This document shows positions 29,414 to 38,122 of a stretch of 64,000 nucleotides of DNA, one piece after another. Under the pieces are notes generated by a model. The model made no database searches and was not told where the DNA came from. It saw only the letters and a list, made by a program, of their open reading frames with translations. The first letter of the stretch is position 1, and each line of letters opens with the position of its first letter. The stretch is from Sulfurimonas lithotrophica (GTDB lineage Bacteria > Campylobacterota > Campylobacteria > Campylobacterales > Sulfurimonadaceae): NCBI RefSeq assembly GCF_009258225.1, contig NZ_CP043617.1, forward strand, positions 558,001-622,000, in the 5' to 3' direction. The position numbers and the translations under genes are program-made.

Positions 29414-32032
29414 TTAGTTAAGATATTCGCTTAAAACTTGTCGTAACATATTTTTATCTACCGGTTTTGTTAAATAATAATCCATCCCTGCAGATAAGAA
29501 TTTTTTCTTATCGCCTTTTAAAGCATTTGCCGTTAGAGCTATAATAGGGGTATGTTTTAGTTTATTTTTCTTTTCTATCTCTATAATTTTAGAAGTTGTT
29601 TCAATCCCGCTCATATTAGGCATATTTTCATCCATAAGTATTACATCGTATTTATTGTTTTTAAAATATTCTATTGCTTCAAAACCGTCGTTTGCTATAT
29701 CGTAAGTTACTTTTTCTTTTTTGAAGATGACTTTTATAAACATTTGATTTGCTTTATTGTCTTCTACCAACAAAATATTTCCTTCTAACTCTTTTTTTAT
29801 GTCACTAAGTTTTGGTTTTTCATCCTCTTGCTCATCACTGGTTTCAAGAGGGATAGAAAAGTAAAATTCACTACCTTTGTTCAGTTCACTTTTTACATCA
29901 AGTTTACCTCCCATCATCTTAATAAGGTTATAAGAAATAGATAAACCTAAGCCTGTACCTCCATACTTTCTGGTGGTTGAATTGTCCTCTTGCGAAAATG
30001 GCTCAAAAATCCTTTTTTGATATTCTTTTGAAATACCGATACCCTCATCCTTTACTCTTACTCGCAGTTGAGATTTGTAGTACATGATATCTACAAAAAT
30101 ATTTTTACCTTCCGCCGTAAACTTAATGGCGTTTCCTATAAGGTTATTTAATACTTGCTTGATTCTTAATACATCTCCTTTTAAGATTTTCGGGAGTTCA
30201 TTTATGGTCAAATACAGTATTATGTTTTTTTCGTTTGCTCTAGCTTCAAAAAGTTTTTTTGTTGTTAAAAACTCATTTTTTGGATTAAAATTTATCGAGT
30301 CTATAGTTATATTTCCACTCTCAATTTTGCTAAAATCAAGTATATCGTTGATTATATTCAACAAATCATTACTTGCACTATTTATTACGCCTAAATACTT
30401 TAAGCTTTCACTATCTCGTTCTTTTTCTTTTAAAAGGTCTATAAAACCCATTATGGCGTTTAGCGGCGTCCTTATTTCATGACTCATATTAGCTAAAAAT
30501 TCCGATTTGGCTATGTTTGATTCCATAGCTTTTTTTGTTTGTTCTTTTAGCTCTTTTTCGTGAAGGATAGTTTTTGTTATATCATATATAGTACCTATAC
30601 TTTTTACTAGATTGCCTTTAGCATTAAAACTGTGGATGATGTTTTCTTGTACATATCGTATATCGCCGTCGTCTCTTAGTATTTTGTACTCGATATTGCA
30701 TTGCTGTTTGTCCGTCATACTTTTTTTACGGGCTTTTTGTACATGCTTAAAATCATCAGGGTGTACATAAGAAAGAAGAGTATTTTCATTTGGTTTAAAT
30801 GATTGTGGTTGAAAGCCTATTATTCTAAAAATTTCATCGCTCCAATCCAGCTTTTTTTGTTTTACGTCATAGTTCCATGAACCTAGATGGGCAATACTTT
30901 GTACCTCTTTTAAAATATTGTTCTTTTCGTTAATCTCTTTTGTTCTTAAATCCACGGTATCTTTTAGTTTTTTACTAAATAATAAAAGTGAAAAAATTAT
31001 AATTATGACTACTATTACAAAAATCAAAAGTATGTTTAAATATTTTTCATAATTCGGTTTATCCGTATTTGGATTCCAAACTAACTCTTTTAGAGCTTGT
31101 TTTAATGAATCTTTATCGGATTTGTCCATCTTTTCAAATGCTTGGGCGGCTTTATAAAATCTGTCTGAATTTGTATAACCTATATCTACCAACTTTCTAA
31201 CCATAAGTTTTTCATACAGATTTGCTTCATATAAAAGGGCATCAAGAGTTGATTTGCTTCCGTATTCATCAATGAGGGTTTTTGCACTTAACTCTTTATT
31301 GTCCATAGCATAGTTCCATCCTTTTATAGATGCCGCAAGAAATTTTTTTGAACGTTCTGGATTGTTTTTCAGTTCTTTTTCTCTACTAAAGAGTATGCCG
31401 TCATATAAATCAACACCGTAGTTTACGGGATTAATTATATTAAAATCGACATCTTCATCCAGTAAGTCAAATATAATACGACCGGAATGTCCGGATATTA
31501 CATCTATCTTTCCTTCTAAAAAATCTTTATAATCATTTTTAAAAGGTATGTATGTATAGTCTGATTTTTTAAGACCAGAAGAACTTAGCAATACACTTAC
31601 TGCAGCATTATCCGTAGCTTCAGGGTAAGAAATGATTTTATTATTCATTTCCAAAGGACTGAAAATCATAGTATTTTCAGCTGATATGAGTACAAGTGGA
31701 GAGTGTTGAAATATAGATGCCATAACTTGTACGGGATGACCGTATGAGCGGTAAAGTAAAATGTTTGAATCCGAGATGCTATATGTAGCTTCGCCGTTTA
31801 TAACTTGGTCTATATTATTTTTGTTAAAATTTCTCTCTAATATTTTTACATCAAGCCCCGCTTCTTTATAGTAGCCGTTCTTTAAAGCCATATAGTAACC
31901 TGCAAATTCAAATGTACTTAGACCGTTAAGTTGAAGAGATACTTTTTCTAAGTTATTATTGTTTGCATTTAAACAAGATACGTAAAATAGTAAAAATAAT
32001 ATGGTTTGAAGGAAATTTATTTTTAAAAACAT
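29414..32032 (-). CDS. Hybrid sensor kinase with NMT1/THI5-like periplasmic domain
   Basis: The 872-residue protein has a signal peptide (1-23), an NMT1/SsuA-type periplasmic substrate-binding domain (about 30-300, with ELAGYYMALKNGYY-like sequence LSTFEFAGYYMALKNGYYKE), a membrane helix (about 332-355), a PAS domain (about 385-490), HisKA with NMSHEIRTPLNAIMGF, HATPase with N-box IGNAIKFT and GTGLGLSI, and a receiver with D in ILMDENMP. The binding domain probably senses a small pyrimidine- or sulfonate-like ligand directly. It has no HPt domain. The Memo-like gene lies 17 bases downstream. Confidence 0.88.
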   Translation of the reverse strand: MFLKINFLQTILFLLFYVSCLNANNNNLEKVSLQLNGLSTFEFAGYYMALKNGYYKEAGLDVKILERNFNKNNIDQVINGEATYSISDSNILLYRSYGHPVQVMASIFQHSPLVLISAENTMIFSPLEMNNKIISYPEATDNAAVSVLLSSSGLKKSDYTYIPFKNDYKDFLEGKIDVISGHSGRIIFDLLDEDVDFNIINPVNYGVDLYDGILFSREKELKNNPERSKKFLAASIKGWNYAMDNKELSAKTLIDEYGSKSTLDALLYEANLYEKLMVRKLVDIGYTNSDRFYKAAQAFEKMDKSDKDSLKQALKELVWNPNTDKPNYEKYLNILLIFVIVVIIIIFSLLLFSKKLKDTVDLRTKEINEKNNILKEVQSIAHLGSWNYDVKQKKLDWSDEIFRIIGFQPQSFKPNENTLLSYVHPDDFKHVQKARKKSMTDKQQCNIEYKILRDDGDIRYVQENIIHSFNAKGNLVKSIGTIYDITKTILHEKELKEQTKKAMESNIAKSEFLANMSHEIRTPLNAIMGFIDLLKEKERDSESLKYLGVINSASNDLLNIINDILDFSKIESGNITIDSINFNPKNEFLTTKKLFEARANEKNIILYLTINELPKILKGDVLRIKQVLNNLIGNAIKFTAEGKNIFVDIMYYKSQLRVRVKDEGIGISKEYQKRIFEPFSQEDNSTTRKYGGTGLGLSISYNLIKMMGGKLDVKSELNKGSEFYFSIPLETSDEQEDEKPKLSDIKKELEGNILLVEDNKANQMFIKVIFKKEKVTYDIANDGFEAIEYFKNNKYDVILMDENMPNMSGIETTSKIIEIEKKNKLKHTPIIALTANALKGDKKKFLSAGMDYYLTKPVDKNMLRQVLSEYLN

Positions 32033-32087
32033 AAGATGATTTTAGCATAAATATACTCTAGAAAGAAAAAAATTATAAATAGTTTTT

Positions 32088-32111
32088 TTGAAGATGGTGT
32101 CAAGAGAGAGA
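32088..32111. repeat. attR-like distal copy of the 24-bp direct repeat
   Basis: This copy matches positions 35922-35945 exactly over 24 bases and diverges on both sides. It lies 56 bases upstream of the hybrid kinase start and holds 17 bases of tRNA 3' sequence with no tRNA around it, as expected for the far attachment site. Confidence 0.82.
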
Positions 32112-32142
32112 TAGCCAAAATAGAAATATAAAAAGCTATAAA

Positions 32143-32158
32143 TGCCTATGAATAGGCA
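32143..32158. terminator. Hairpin downstream of the AAA/TOPRIM gene
   Basis: TGCCTAT-GA-ATAGGCA forms a 6-7 bp stem. It lies 114 bases after the stop of the minus-strand ATPase gene, and the minus strand continues into a T-rich run, so it may be that gene's terminator. Confidence 0.4.
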
Positions 32159-32271
32159 CTTTCTAATTTCATAAAACTTTAAAAATGGAACAATTGGAGT
32201 CATTTATGGAACAGTAATTTATGATTCAACAGTTCAAAAAATACTTTTTAATTATTAACAAATATTGTTTT

Positions 32272-35200
32272 TTAGTTTTCTTTTAAACTAAACTTACTAA
32301 AAATTTTATTAAATAGTTTGTTGTATTTTGTATTCTGCTTAGGCTTATTTTTATAGTAGTTATCAAGTTTTTTTCTAAAAGTTCCTTTTTTATCTTCATC
32401 TAATAATAACTCAAATGCTTCATATTGTTTTAATGCATGAATATATATATCAAGATAAGGAGCGTAACTAGAGCCATTAAATAAATTATTACTTAGACCT
32501 ATGATATTTTTAAACTCATAACCTATTTGAATATATTTCCCAAAATGTTGATAGTAAATAATAGTTTCTACAGAATTAATTATATTAATCAATGCACTTT
32601 CTGAAAATAATAACCTTAATTCATCTAAATTATTCAATTTTAATGCAACATATATAGTAAAATAAAATTCATTAATATCTGCAGTATTATTAACTACGTT
32701 TCTAGAATTAATAATATTAGTAACTTTTTCTAAATCATCTTGTTTAAAAGTCTTCATAGAAATAAACATTATTTCTAAAATTAGATGTAATTTATATTGT
32801 GATCCAGAGGTAAGCGTCTGTATATTATTTAAAAGGTCATCAATTGAAAATTTTATTGGTATTTCGTGATTGATAATATTGTGTAATATATTTAAATTAT
32901 TTGAAAGCTTTATAAAATACTTATTTAATAAATAAATAAAACTTTCATTATTAAAGTTCTTTGACATATAATCATTTATAATGTGAGAATCATTATTAGA
33001 AAACTTTTCTTGTTCAAATAATTTAAGGAGTTCAGCATCTAACTCTGAAAAATCAATTGACTTTTCCTTATCTATAAGTTTTGTTCTTCCTTTTTCAATG
33101 TCCAATGTTTCTTTTAAATCTTCTTTATTATTTGAGGACAACTTTATTTTCTCTTGATTACTTATATCTTCTTTTGCTTCTTTATTATCTTTGGATAACT
33201 TTATTTCATTTTTATTACTTATAGTTTTTTCTACTTTTTCTTTAGTCTCAATAGGTTCTTCTATAGTTTTTTTAGTATCTATGACTTGCTTCCTGCCTAA
33301 AGCTTTTGTACCTTCTTGTTTAACATCTATAGATGGTATATCACAACTGTCTAGTTCTAGTAATTCAACAATATCTAAAATCCATGATGGAATAAACTCT
33401 GAATTGTATTTAGAAACATAATAATTACAAATTTGTTGTTTTGTACTTGTTTTCTCTAAAAAGCTAATAACTTCTGAAAATTGATTAACATGTTCTATTA
33501 AACCATTAGCTTCATCAAATTTTAATAAAACAGCTTCTCCATTATTTGATGGTATTCTAGATATCTTACAATTATTATTTTGTTTATATGAGTTTAAAAT
33601 TTGCTCAATATCAGTGCCAATAGCAATATGTTTTATTGTATCAAAATATTTTTTAGGTTCTAAACAATCTTCGACTTCAGTTTGGGAATATCTTTGTGTA
33701 TTTTGAGCAATTTTATCTAATTTTATTATGTCTTTATGAATTTGAATTCTTCTAATGTAAATCGTATTATCTTTGTCAGATAGAATATTGTTATCCAAAC
33801 CAAATTGTCTTAAATCAGTATCTACAAGACAAAGTATTTTTCCATGTATTTTAACTCTATCTTTCTGACTTAATGAAGCATAGAGTAAATGGTATAGCTT
33901 TTTTACATTACCACATCCACTTACTGGTATGATTCTAAGATTAGAATTTTTTTGATTAAATTTTAAATAATATTCTAAGTATTTTTTATCATCACTTCCT
34001 TCACATATTATCCATTTATTAAATCTTGTTGTTGATTTAATTGAAGTTATGATTGATGTAACTAATTCAAAAAAACTTTTCATTTCAATATCATCTGGAA
34101 ATAAATCTTGTTGTTCAAAAAGATTATAAAAATCTAAGTTTTTAATTTTTATATCATTGTCTTCTAGTGCAATATGATTTAAGTTGCCATAATCACTAAT
34201 AGGTAAAAAGCCATACCAATGTGTTGTACCTATAAATTGTACATTATGTTCTAAAACTAAACTTTCTAGTTGTTTAAACTGATCGAAAACATTTTTCATA
34301 TGCATGGATGTTTCAGGTTCATCTACCGCTAATATAACTTCTTTTGCTCTTTTTGAACTTTGTTTTAAAAATGCTGTTGCTATATCAATAAGAGCTTTTC
34401 TTTTTTCACCAGAACTTAATTGAACAATATCTTTTCCATTTTTACTTAAACTTCTAATTGAAAAATATGCTTTAAAAATTTGTTCTCTAATATCTTTTGG
34501 AGTTAAATATTTTTTAAATTGTCTATCTGCTGTATAAGCGTAACTGTTATCTATATTAGAAATAATATCATTAACTTCATACATAAATATATCAAGCTTA
34601 TTATTAATTGAATCTACAATTGATATTTTTTTACCATCTATTGAAGCTTTTGATGATAACATCTTTTCAGTATATTCTAAAATGTCCTCACTTAATAACA
34701 TTTGCATTTCTGTTGTTTCCATTTTTAATATTTCGTCCACAGGTGTTTCAACAGGTACATATATGTATGAATATATATTTTTTATTTTTTCTATTAAGTT
34801 TTTAACATCTCCTATGTCAAATTCCATTTGATTAGTAATGAATTTTTCAAAAGAGAAAAAATAATCATTAACTTGCTTACTTACATGAAGAGGTGTTAAT
34901 AAAAGATAATAGTCATTTAAATTATTCATTTCTTTTACTTCTTGTAAAAAGTAAAAAAAGTTTAGAACATGTTGATTTGATTTTAAATAGTTAGTATCAT
35001 TGATATCCCAACTTAAAAATAAATCATTAATAGTGGAAATTATCTTTAATTCATTATTCGTTAAATTTAAAGATTCTTTTTTTATAAGGAAAACTGGACA
35101 TATAAATGCGTCATGTTTTTTGGAATTTCTATTTATATTCCATTCTCTATTATTAAAAAAAATATCAAGTGCTTCTAAAATAGAACTTTTACCTACTCCA

Positions 35201-35304
35201 TTTTCACCAATATAAAAAGTGAATGGCTTGTTATTTTTAACAGTAGGGATATAAAAAGTTTTTTCATAGCTTTTTATATTCCTTACAAATAGACCAATTA
35301 GCAT
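32272..35304 (-). CDS. OLD-like AAA ATPase with TOPRIM domain and long C-terminal extension
   Basis: The 1010-residue protein has an ABC/SMC-type ATPase: Walker A GENGVGKSS (33-41), signature LSSGEKRK (296-303), Walker B VILAVDEPE (323-331) and TTHW at 360-363. A TOPRIM nuclease-type domain follows, with E435 in ICEGSDD and D495/D497 in LVDTD. This order is that of single-gene (class 1) OLD-family endonucleases, many of which are phage defence genes. After it come about 500 residues, including a charged low-complexity linker (about 685-760, with a 19-residue duplicated unit) and a helical C-terminal domain I do not recognise. No helicase partner is adjacent, so it is not a Gabija pair. The defence role is inferred. 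Confidence 0.78.
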   Translation of the reverse strand: MLIGLFVRNIKSYEKTFYIPTVKNNKPFTFYIGENGVGKSSILEALDIFFNNREWNINRNSKKHDAFICPVFLIKKESLNLTNNELKIISTINDLFLSWDINDTNYLKSNQHVLNFFYFLQEVKEMNNLNDYYLLLTPLHVSKQVNDYFFSFEKFITNQMEFDIGDVKNLIEKIKNIYSYIYVPVETPVDEILKMETTEMQMLLSEDILEYTEKMLSSKASIDGKKISIVDSINNKLDIFMYEVNDIISNIDNSYAYTADRQFKKYLTPKDIREQIFKAYFSIRSLSKNGKDIVQLSSGEKRKALIDIATAFLKQSSKRAKEVILAVDEPETSMHMKNVFDQFKQLESLVLEHNVQFIGTTHWYGFLPISDYGNLNHIALEDNDIKIKNLDFYNLFEQQDLFPDDIEMKSFFELVTSIITSIKSTTRFNKWIICEGSDDKKYLEYYLKFNQKNSNLRIIPVSGCGNVKKLYHLLYASLSQKDRVKIHGKILCLVDTDLRQFGLDNNILSDKDNTIYIRRIQIHKDIIKLDKIAQNTQRYSQTEVEDCLEPKKYFDTIKHIAIGTDIEQILNSYKQNNNCKISRIPSNNGEAVLLKFDEANGLIEHVNQFSEVISFLEKTSTKQQICNYYVSKYNSEFIPSWILDIVELLELDSCDIPSIDVKQEGTKALGRKQVIDTKKTIEEPIETKEKVEKTISNKNEIKLSKDNKEAKEDISNQEKIKLSSNNKEDLKETLDIEKGRTKLIDKEKSIDFSELDAELLKLFEQEKFSNNDSHIINDYMSKNFNNESFIYLLNKYFIKLSNNLNILHNIINHEIPIKFSIDDLLNNIQTLTSGSQYKLHLILEIMFISMKTFKQDDLEKVTNIINSRNVVNNTADINEFYFTIYVALKLNNLDELRLLFSESALINIINSVETIIYYQHFGKYIQIGYEFKNIIGLSNNLFNGSSYAPYLDIYIHALKQYEAFELLLDEDKKGTFRKKLDNYYKNKPKQNTKYNKLFNKIFSKFSLKEN

Positions 35305-35581
35305 ATGTTATAACCCTTTTTTTTTAAAACTTTGTCAAAAAATCTGTATTACACATATTTATAAAATACATATTGATATTATTAGAAACAACTAAACAAT
35401 TACAGATTAAAACTATATTAATAACCTATGTTTATAATTATTAATAAAGATTTTAGAAAATTGTATAGAGTTTATTATTTGTCTAAACTTAATGCAAATT
35501 AATTTATATAAATTTTTTAAATGATTTTTGTTAAAATCTAAATAGACCAATAATATAAATTAACTGGAACTAAAAACTCTT

Positions 35582-35836
35582 TTGTGTTTCTTATATAGTA
35601 ATAAGGTAAGAGATTACTCTTGGAAAGACAGATTAAAAAGAGCAAATTTAGAATATAGAACAATCTACAACATTAGACACTCGTTTGCAAGTTTAATGAT
35701 AAGTAAGGGTGAAGATATACTTTGGGTCTCTCATATGTTAGGTCACAGTTCAACTGAAATGACTTTACGAAAATATGTTAAATACATTAAAAATGAGAGA
35801 AAACAAAGAGCAGTTTTTTTACATAATGAAATCTAG
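35582..35836 (+). pseudogene. Tyrosine recombinase (phage integrase) remnant, C-terminal fragment
   Basis: About 84 residues match the end of a tyrosine integrase: YNIRHSFASLMI (the second catalytic arginine), VSHMLGHSS (H and LGH block) and TLRKYVKYI (nucleophile tyrosine). The N-terminal arm-binding and core domains and the first catalytic arginine are missing. A NSFVFLI-like stretch just upstream in another frame (about 35576-35596) suggests a frameshift, and stops precede it. The position next to the tRNA end is where an active integrase gene would lie. The fragment is not likely to be functional. Confidence 0.8.
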
Positions 35837-35837
35837 T

Positions 35838-35880
35838 TTTGGCACACTAGAACAGAATTGGCACAATTTTGGCATAATTT
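35838..35880 (+). repeat. Three short TTGGCA repeats next to the attachment site
   Basis: TTTGGCACA, ATTGGCACA and TTTGGCATA occur within about 35 bases between the integrase remnant and the tRNA. They may be remnants of integrase arm-binding sites or the decayed end of the integrase reading frame. No other role is visible. Confidence 0.35.
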
Positions 35881-35921
35881 AAAAATTTGATTCTCTGAAA
35901 GTTCGTATTTTAGGAGTTTAA

Positions 35922-35945
35922 TTGAAGATGGTGTCAAGAGAGAGA
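35922..35945. repeat. attL-like copy of the 24-bp direct repeat within the tRNA 3' end
   Basis: This copy covers the CCA, acceptor stem and part of the T-arm of the tRNA (35929-35945) plus 7 bases beyond. It is identical to 32088-32111, so the element restored an intact tRNA end on insertion. Confidence 0.82.
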
Positions 35946-36005
35946 CTTGAACTCTCGACCTCCGGCTTATGAGACCAGCGCTCTAACCAGCTGAGCTACC
36001 TTGAC
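35929..36005 (-). tRNA. tRNA with CAT anticodon (probably elongator tRNA-Met)
   Basis: The minus strand folds into a full 77-nt cloverleaf: acceptor GTCAAGG/TCTTGAC with discriminator A and encoded CCA, D-stem GCTC/GAGC, anticodon stem CTGGT/GCCGG with loop CTCATAA, and T-stem GAGAG/CTCTC with TTCAAGT. The G1-C72 pair and the lack of three G-C pairs at the anticodon stem end argue against the initiator. A CAT tRNA read as isoleucine after lysidine modification cannot be excluded. It is the integration site of the element on its 3' side. Confidence 0.9.
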
Positions 36006-36155
36006 ATCCGTTTAAGAGGGTGGAATTATACTACCTAAAAACTTTAAAAAACCTTTTATTTATAGAAAAATAAATTATAATATAATAAACTCAATATACT
36101 TTAGCTTTAACTATATATAAATATTGAGTCTTATAGACTAAGAGTGTTGACTTTG

Positions 36156-36172
36156 TTACTAATTTTTAGTAA
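36156..36172. promoter_or_regulatory. Inverted repeat upstream of groES
   Basis: TTACTAA-TTT-TTAGTAA is a perfect 7-bp inverted repeat 40 bases before the groES ATG, and a TTGACT -35-like box lies just upstream at 36147. A second dyad, AGTCT-TAT-AGACT, lies at 36127-36139. Neither is the HrcA CIRCE sequence. These may be operators of a heat-shock regulator. Confidence 0.4.
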
Positions 36173-36211
36173 TATTCGCATATTAATTTAGACTGTTTAT
36201 AAGGAGTTAAA

Positions 36212-38122
<1,911 letters not shown>

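Follow-up and report, generated by a model that had tools for sequence, protein, structure and literature searches.

A decayed tRNA-site insertion in Sulfurimonas lithotrophica with a single OLD-type ATPase-TOPRIM gene and a likely role against phages

What is a single long gene doing between two identical repeats at the end of a tRNA gene? This arrangement is found in Sulfurimonas lithotrophica, in a stretch of 64,000 nucleotides (positions 558,001 to 622,000 of contig NZ_CP043617.1) that we will call the window. An exact 24-bp direct repeat brackets 3.8 kb of DNA, and the only intact gene inside encodes a protein of 1010 amino acids with an ATPase domain and a TOPRIM domain. We think it quite probable that this is a decayed tRNA-site insertion whose gene encodes an ATP-gated nuclease of the OLD type that aborts phage infection.

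The two copies of the repeat lie 3834 bp apart, and the match can be stretched to 31 nucleotides at 94% identity. No other copy was found in the whole window with up to 3 mismatches, and none arose in 100 dinucleotide-preserving shuffles. Seventeen of the 24 bases of the right copy are the 3' end of a tRNA-Met(CAT) gene, including the encoded CCA; the tRNA was placed there by both ARAGORN and Rfam (RF00005, 35932-36005, 66.5 bits). Next to the tRNA is a fragment of a tyrosine integrase (PF00589, E = 8.3e-9). A preliminary description of this DNA had pointed to the perfect repeat, to its overlap with the tRNA, and to the integrase fragment, and all three were borne out. The element is also poor in GC (23.4%, versus 33.3% for the window), and in its 1010-codon gene (23.2% GC) third positions are just 13.3% GC, versus 22.5-25.4% in four neighbouring genes.

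If the element was inserted at the tRNA, then a related genome might retain the empty site. We compared the stretch from the tRNA to groES across 99 genomes, a set that includes the source genome (G000). After the source genome itself, the best match was genome G015 (89% identity), in which tRNA-Met directly adjoins a 74.7% identical orthologue of the left neighbour, and the next three genes beyond it are also in conserved order. In the alignment, G015 has one copy of the repeat core and no insert. We also scanned for a second exact copy of the 15-mer at the tRNA end upstream of the tRNA-Met genes of 20 relatives, including G015, and found none (1.8 to 15.9 kb of upstream sequence was present per locus, and up to 15 kb was scanned). 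The preliminary description had proposed checking whether an empty site has a single repeat copy, which is what G015 has, and had named a repeat without the insert as a sign against its reading; no such second copy was seen at the 20 loci. A direct repeat with one copy in a tRNA 3' end, together with an empty site elsewhere, is what defines an integrative element at a tRNA site, but such an element should also have an intact integrase, and this one holds a C-terminal relic only. The relic aligns to residues 278-353 of a 354-amino-acid relative, which is about the last 75 residues or the C-terminal quarter. A 13-residue piece of integrase in another frame lies just upstream (about 35554-35592), and we found no other convincing integrase parts within the element. 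Thus, the element is a tRNA-site insertion that has decayed. Presumably, it no longer encodes an enzyme that could move it.

The motifs, profiles, and structural model together show the cargo to be a standalone enzyme of the OLD family and a putative nuclease, with an ATPase domain of the SMC/ABC type followed by a TOPRIM domain. Pfam's AAA_15 matches residues 6-362 (E = 7.2e-21), and AAA_21 is likewise above its cut-off; TOPRIM is matched by Pfam in 29 of 40 family members (E ≤ 0.01). As in other members of the OLD family, ABC/SMC-type ATPase motifs at the N-terminus are followed by a C-terminal TOPRIM domain with its catalytic glutamate and DxD. K39, D328, E329, P330, H362, E435, D495, D497, and E545 are invariant in all 40 aligned members, and the motifs are also displayed in a 37-member alignment. 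This agrees with the preliminary description, which had recognized an OLD-like ATPase with a TOPRIM domain as the sole intact cargo, except that it labelled the ATPase as AAA; the domain is of the SMC/OLD-ABC type and not AAA+.

The AlphaFold model of the protein has a mean predicted local distance difference test score (pLDDT) of 69.1. Most of residues 1-650 are modelled well, residues 577-604 poorly, and residues 655-746 are disordered. The best matches from Foldseek are GajA, the retron Eco8 effector, and TsOLD (E = 1.1e-13 to 6.9e-11). Among the best 50 rows from VIA-align, 11 reach residue 651 or beyond, and all of these are retron Eco8, GajA, or TsOLD; the OLD entries extend through residue 651-655 and so cover the TOPRIM domain. 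The top row is retron Eco8 (9lpa_B; Z = 17.6, 477 residues, root-mean-square deviation 19.8), and GajA (8x5i_A; Z = 15.9, 364 residues, 17.3) and TsOLD (6p74; Z = 15.2, 362 residues, 14.8) are similar. These high deviations would fit either a different arrangement of the domains or uncertain packing of the domains in the model. In a library of viral structures there were 6 matches at E ≤ 0.001, the first of which is an ATP-dependent endonuclease from a giant virus.

TOPRIM-linked OLD ATPases are a known class of defence proteins (PMC12839542, PMC10568477), so we asked which of the described systems this gene belongs to. By PADLOC, the window protein is closest to AriA, the ATPase of PARIS (72 bits, E = 2e-20), followed by mad3 (43.1 bits), the ATPase-TOPRIM protein of type I-B retrons (40.9 bits), and Old (25.7 bits). 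Across the 40 family members, AriA matches 40, mad3 39, PtuA 38, Old 33, and GajA up to 29. The gene might therefore be a PARIS fused into a single gene, with an AriA-like ATPase and an AriB-like TOPRIM that cleaves host tRNA when the phage makes an anti-restriction protein, for example Ocr. Fused AriAB proteins are known (PMC9122126), PARIS (AriA/AriB; Class 4 OLD) is also carried by mobile elements, and one relative of the window gene is embedded in a BREX locus, where PMC12839542 reads OLD-TOPRIM modules as a PARIS-like back-up. But the window protein is one polypeptide with an OLD-like TOPRIM, and DUF4435 (PF14491), which defines PARIS, has no match in it at E up to 1. Nor does DUF4435 match anything in the source genome at E ≤ 0.001, whereas within the order, matches are found in 9 of 149 genomes. 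Furthermore, a presumed AriA (the ATPase frame adjoining a DUF4435 gene at locus L151) aligns to our family profile over just 71 columns (E = 6.8e-8), the partner that carries DUF4435 fails to align (E = 0.16), and the alignment of a 520-amino-acid frame at L155, which combines a Walker A motif with DUF4435, is weak (E = 5.1e-6). So, although the protein has the AriA-type ATPase (AAA_15/AAA_21), we set PARIS aside on the sequence of the second domain, and we consider a fused PARIS to be unlikely.

Two other systems lack their partners here. Gabija's GajA (Class 2) shares its fold with residues 1-653 of the window protein, but the element encodes no GajB helicase (UvrD/PcrA-like) and no other long gene, and the outside neighbours are a sensor-kinase-like gene and groES. 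The effector of retron Eco8 (Class 3) gave the top VIA-align row, but there is no open reading frame (ORF) in the element of the size of a reverse transcriptase, and among Rfam families, which need not include every noncoding RNA, only tRNA exceeds its gathering score in 31900-36200, with no match to a retron RNA. As DUF4435, the helicase, and the reverse transcriptase are all missing, the gene is best described as encoding an OLD-family enzyme that stands alone and whose ATPase resembles AriA.

Standalone OLD genes are placed in Class 1, and except for the integrase relic, this is the only long ORF between the repeats. Might it then be an ordinary Class 1 exonuclease like P2 Old, which kills cells or blocks phages when RecBCD is inhibited, with an irrelevant tail? 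Like P2 Old and the OLD protein of Thermus scotoductus (6p74), it is a single gene with the ATPase first and then TOPRIM. P2 Old is also the best aligned of four proteins that we compared to the family with hhalign (E = 2.3e-9, residues 231-472, covering the latter half of the ATPase and the beginning of TOPRIM), and some relatives of the window gene adjoin a P2-like portal gene, in the region where P2 carries old. However, the similarity in sequence is weak, the window protein has 1010 amino acids versus 586 for P2 Old, PADLOC favours AriA over Old, and retron Eco8 and GajA equal TsOLD as structural matches. We view an ordinary Class 1 OLD as a minority possibility, and a rather doubtful one. 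IbfA and HEC-04 are likewise described as standalone proteins with an ATPase and TOPRIM and are reported to have anti-phage activity (PMC12111858); we compared them by description only. At 518 amino acids, IbfA is shorter than the window protein with its 1010. The PADLOC families that were listed as matching the window protein do not include HEC-04, which still allows for kinship. Along with P2 old, these are tested examples of single-gene systems.

The case for defence comes from where the relatives of the gene are found. The ATPase gene is present in 2 of the 99 genomes, the source genome and G079, where it lies at another place. Across 397 genomes of the phylum, there are matches in 15 (E ≤ 0.001), of which 8 are strong (counting the source genome); the other 7 strong matches are all in one family (f11), and the remaining 7 have E values of 1e-8 to 2.4e-4. 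Because its presence is so sporadic, the ATPase gene is not a core gene, and conservation at this locus as a core gene, which the preliminary description had listed as grounds for doubt, was not found. Relatives in named genomes come from Pseudomonadota, Bacteroidota, Rhodothermota, and Cyanobacteriota and from a metagenome-assembled genome of Lachnospiraceae. Relatives were also found on plasmids and in prophages.

The relatives considered here are those of residues 1-650 of the window protein. Scans of viral contigs and genome contigs with the single protein, and tblastn against phages, found no relatives; a query built from an alignment (A1) did. One alignment of the family (A2) comprises 40 proteins and another (A3) 37. 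Broken or truncated copies (L069, L081, L083, L085, L111), similar copies (L092, L093, L095, L099, L100, L101), fragmentary matches (L086-L089, L112-L115), and weak matches from the phylum (L123-L131) were left unaligned. There were 16 plasmid records with a match, of which 3 were examined and used, and neighbours were scanned for domains for 20 proteins at chosen loci.

Many of these relatives sit among defence genes. On an Acinetobacter plasmid, a relative is flanked by the pglX and pglZ genes of BREX-1. The relatives on a Lactiplantibacillus plasmid and in G079 have AlwI restriction enzymes and adenine methylases close by, and the relative on a second Lactiplantibacillus plasmid adjoins a transposase, with no restriction gene next to it. 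Other relatives adjoin HsdR and a helicase of the RecD type, or Schlafen AlbA, or a NERD-UvrD helicase; MmeI is nearby in still other cases, and the relative at L080 is preceded by an IS110-type transposase. We also examined 22 loci on viral contigs (L090-L111; L112-L115 were left out), using tblastn within 600 bp. Thirteen of these relatives have a CI repressor on one side and an integrase on the other, 2 are beside CI only, 2 are beside an integrase only, 4 adjoin a portal gene, and 1 is beside none of these. (The P2-like label is based on CI, integrase, portal, and gpP-like terminase domains in four scanned loci: L091, L104, L107, and L110.) P2-like phages have a defence hotspot between gpA and the portal gene gpQ, where P2 carries old and tin, and P2-related prophages of Vibrionaceae have one between cI and the integrase (both from PMC9122126). 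The positions of the relatives on viral contigs match these hotspots. Because its relatives often sit in defence loci, the window gene is likely to have an anti-phage role.

The BREX-recruited, TOPRIM-linked OLD-ABC ATPases of PMC12839542 have the same two domains as the window protein, and the relative between pglX and pglZ shares their setting. In contrast, the window gene stands alone, with no adjoining BREX gene, and has a C-terminal tail, DUF7829. The preliminary description had put the gene forward as an undescribed defence module. The association of the family with defence is indeed strong, and its OLD-like TOPRIM nature was correctly recognized, but "undescribed" goes too far for a known class, and the tail, which is the unusual part, had gone unreported.

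Might the gene instead serve the element, by maintaining it or by excluding competing plasmids or elements, rather than protecting the cell from phages? It is the sole surviving gene of an element, and its relatives are on plasmids and in prophages. On the other hand, the element seems to be immobile, so selection for the element's own benefit should have lapsed, and the relatives associated with BREX and restriction genes indicate defence of the cell. We judge this explanation to be improbable. Alternatively, the gene could be a passenger in decay that no longer has a function, given the integrase relic, the very low GC content, a tail that is seen in 1 of 40 members, and a 57-nucleotide tandem duplication (77% identical, 33120-33233) in the part of the gene that encodes the linker. 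But a frame of 1010 codons has stayed open and kept its catalytic residues in DNA of 23% GC, which makes mere decay a poor explanation and, we believe, quite unlikely to be correct.

Several observations weigh against a defence nuclease. The OLD-like_TOPRIM model scores 19.1 bits for residues 429-476, below its cut-off of 23.2. Foldseek's TM-scores are low (0.20-0.25 by query length and 0.29-0.36 by target length for the best rows), and in VIA-align, SMC and Rad50 heads fit the ATPase part (residues 1 to about 400) as well as the OLD entries do, so the fold alone is no proof of defence. (AriA is absent from the best 50 VIA-align rows, which does not exclude it.) The tail is helical in the AlphaFold model, at low confidence. 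The window protein is on a long branch of the family tree and its placement is unsure: the nearest row is 36% identical, and the tree groups it with two Lactiplantibacillus plasmid rows where long branches meet. The clean comparison of the locus before and after insertion rests on one genome, G015. Some of the prophages on viral contigs are near-identical, so the 21 of 22 loci with a phage gene at hand are not 21 independent events. Finally, the relatives at L116, L117, and L120 are amid ordinary genes (a NapC-type cytochrome, argininosuccinate lyase, a chemoreceptor, and ribonucleotide reductase), and the gene layouts at L118, L119, L121, and L122 resemble L117 or L120, so that seven relatives (L116-L122) appear to be lone genes. 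Together with a class of OLD proteins from Sulfolobales that has a role in the cell cycle and is apparently not defensive (Cran1; PMC12796447), these lone relatives raise the idea that the family is a cellular ATPase for DNA repair or the cell cycle. However, a gene found in 2 of 99 relatives and 15 of 397 genomes is sporadic, and a housekeeping role is, in our view, very improbable. An OLD-type nuclease that defends against phages remains our preferred explanation.

Features of the element and its surroundings (positions are in the window)
Feature	Position	Strand	Evidence or notes
attL, left copy of the 24-bp attachment repeat	32088..32111	.	exact match to 35922-35945, 0 expected
attR, right copy of the repeat, overlaps the tRNA 3' end	35922..35945	.	
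tRNA-Met(CAT), insertion target	35929..36005	-	ARAGORN; Rfam RF00005
Tyrosine integrase, C-terminal relic	35582..35836	+	PF00589, 84-aa ORF
OLD-family ATPase-TOPRIM protein with C-terminal DUF7829, 1010 aa, sole intact cargo gene	32272..35304	-	
ABC/SMC-type ATPase domain, residues 1-400	34105..35304	-	Walker A G33-S40, LSSGE 296-300, DEPE 328-331, H362
TOPRIM nuclease domain (putative), residues 428-650	33355..34023	-	E435, D495, D497, E545
Disordered charged linker, residues 655-746	33067..33342	-	pLDDT under 50
DUF7829 (PF25167) tail, residues 775-1003, predicted helical	32296..32982	-	48.5 bits
872-aa sensor-kinase-like gene, left chromosomal neighbour	29414..32032	-	function from by-eye sequence reading
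groES, right chromosomal neighbour, stays beside the tRNA in relatives	36212..36472	+	

The DUF7829 tail on an OLD-type enzyme, shared with CoiA-like DUF6035 proteins, is the new part of this system. In the window protein, DUF7829 is well above its curated cut-off of 28.6 bits and covers model positions 7-223. It matches no other family member (1 of 40 at E ≤ 0.01), and PF25167 is over its cut-off in 1 of 397 genomes of the phylum, which is the source genome (two more have matches below it), and in none of the 18 genomes in which relatives of the ATPase occur (one has a match below it). Two other sets gave 0 of 299 and 0 of 118 genomes, but the controls also had no match there, so absence is not proven. 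A search of plasmids and phages by tblastn with the C-terminal 252 amino acids gave no match, a model of the tail made without an alignment had a mean pLDDT of 54 and no match to a solved structure at E ≤ 0.001, and the term DUF7829 was not found in the literature searched, in which DUF6035 occurs in one paper. One match on a viral contig (L162) is a short shared stretch inside a 747-amino-acid phage ORF, and the matches in G262, G175, and G464 are weak and below the cut-off; we used none of these.

In a further set of 120 genomes, PF25167 exceeds its cut-off in one, in a 471-amino-acid protein with DUF7830, DUF6035, CoiA_nuc, and DUF7829. In a single pairwise comparison, the tails of this protein and the window protein share 37% identity over 59 amino acids (E = 2e-8). 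Among four DUF6035 proteins on plasmids, three have DUF7829 over the cut-off and one does not, which makes 4 of 5 with the 471-amino-acid protein included. In the DUF6035 proteins, the match to DUF7829 begins near position 134 of the model and so takes in just its second half. These proteins have the tail in common with the window protein, but their main part is CoiA-like instead of ATPase-TOPRIM. CoiA-like domains are presumably nucleases, as their Pfam name suggests. One plasmid gene with DUF7830, DUF6035, and DUF7829 (L165:3965-5383) has AbiJ-NTD4 and a pair of AAA ATPase and UvrD helicase as its neighbours, and another (L168:3812-5212) is inside a type I restriction locus; the other two plasmid DUF6035 genes have no obvious defence-like surroundings. 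The DUF7830-DUF6035-DUF7829 genes are possibly a family of uncharacterised defence nucleases. More tentatively, DUF7829 could be a transferable module for sensing or targeting that occurs in two unrelated anti-invader nucleases, one CoiA-like with DUF6035 and the other the OLD-type ATPase-TOPRIM; we lean somewhat against this idea. If it is true, then the gene would be a defence system of hybrid make-up, in which the tail and not the ATPase determines the trigger or target.

Both the locus and the source genome have other signs of insertions. The left neighbour is beside tRNA-Met in just 1 of 20 relatives (G015), and tRNA-Asn is there in 14 of 20, so the region is plastic. In three relatives that we used solely as a source of integrases (L049, L054, and L057), an integrase lies by a tRNA-Asn near tRNA-Met, upstream of groES; at L054, a C-terminal piece of 112 amino acids remains, and a short ORF nearby looks transposase-like by eye. 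We rejected these integrases as users of the tRNA-Met site because tRNA-Asn intervenes and is probably their target. The tRNA-Asn/tRNA-Met stretch upstream of groES seems to have been hit repeatedly. Distant DNA matches of the integrase relic are found in 37 of 298 genomes, including the source genome, which has two full-length integrase frames elsewhere (40% and 35% identical to the 354-amino-acid relative), one of them beside a tRNA-Leu. The integrase at tRNA-Leu(GAG) (G000:C1:1798696-1799712; L132) is full-length, in a 390-amino-acid frame, and is 40% identical to the L057 integrase; it perhaps marks a second tRNA-linked element in this genome. On contig C2 of the same assembly (36,597 bases), the stretches that we compared (L003, L004, L137) repeat chromosomal DNA at 99.5-100% identity. 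On the chromosome, the loci concerned are at C1 near 1,896,545 and 1,910,070 (L005, L136), and contig C2 has an inverted duplicate of a tRNA-Arg stretch. Contig C2 could thus be an artefact of the assembly or, alternatively, an integrated element in the form of a free copy. Among relatives of the ATPase, the one from Lachnospiraceae (L069:1474-3431; 43% identity in the best segment) is split into two ORFs and is followed by a Schlafen AlbA gene.

We propose the following history and function. An integrative element would have entered the 3' end of tRNA-Met(CAT) by recombination with a tyrosine integrase, duplicating 24 bp, and would then have lost its integrase save for the last quarter; the repeat, the empty site, and the relic are all observed, and the recombination step is the part that we infer. 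This would leave one gene as the cargo, for a standalone OLD-family ATPase-TOPRIM enzyme. By analogy to OLD, Gabija, retron Eco8, and PARIS, the ATPase would keep the TOPRIM domain inactive until a phage-made signal or a state of the DNA is encountered, and the released TOPRIM domain would use metal to cleave DNA or tRNA, which would stop the infected cell. On its flexible linker, the DUF7829 tail would most likely be a module for sensing, targeting, or docking.

PMC10568477 names two open questions: whether OLD enzymes that stand alone suffice for broad defence against phages, and whether single-gene AriAB-like fusions are a separate class. A family of ATPase-TOPRIM proteins that is found in BREX loci, beside restriction genes, and in P2-like hotspots, and that lacks DUF4435, is well placed to address both questions, and in the window protein, the DUF7829 tail offers a removable part for probing what sets the trigger.

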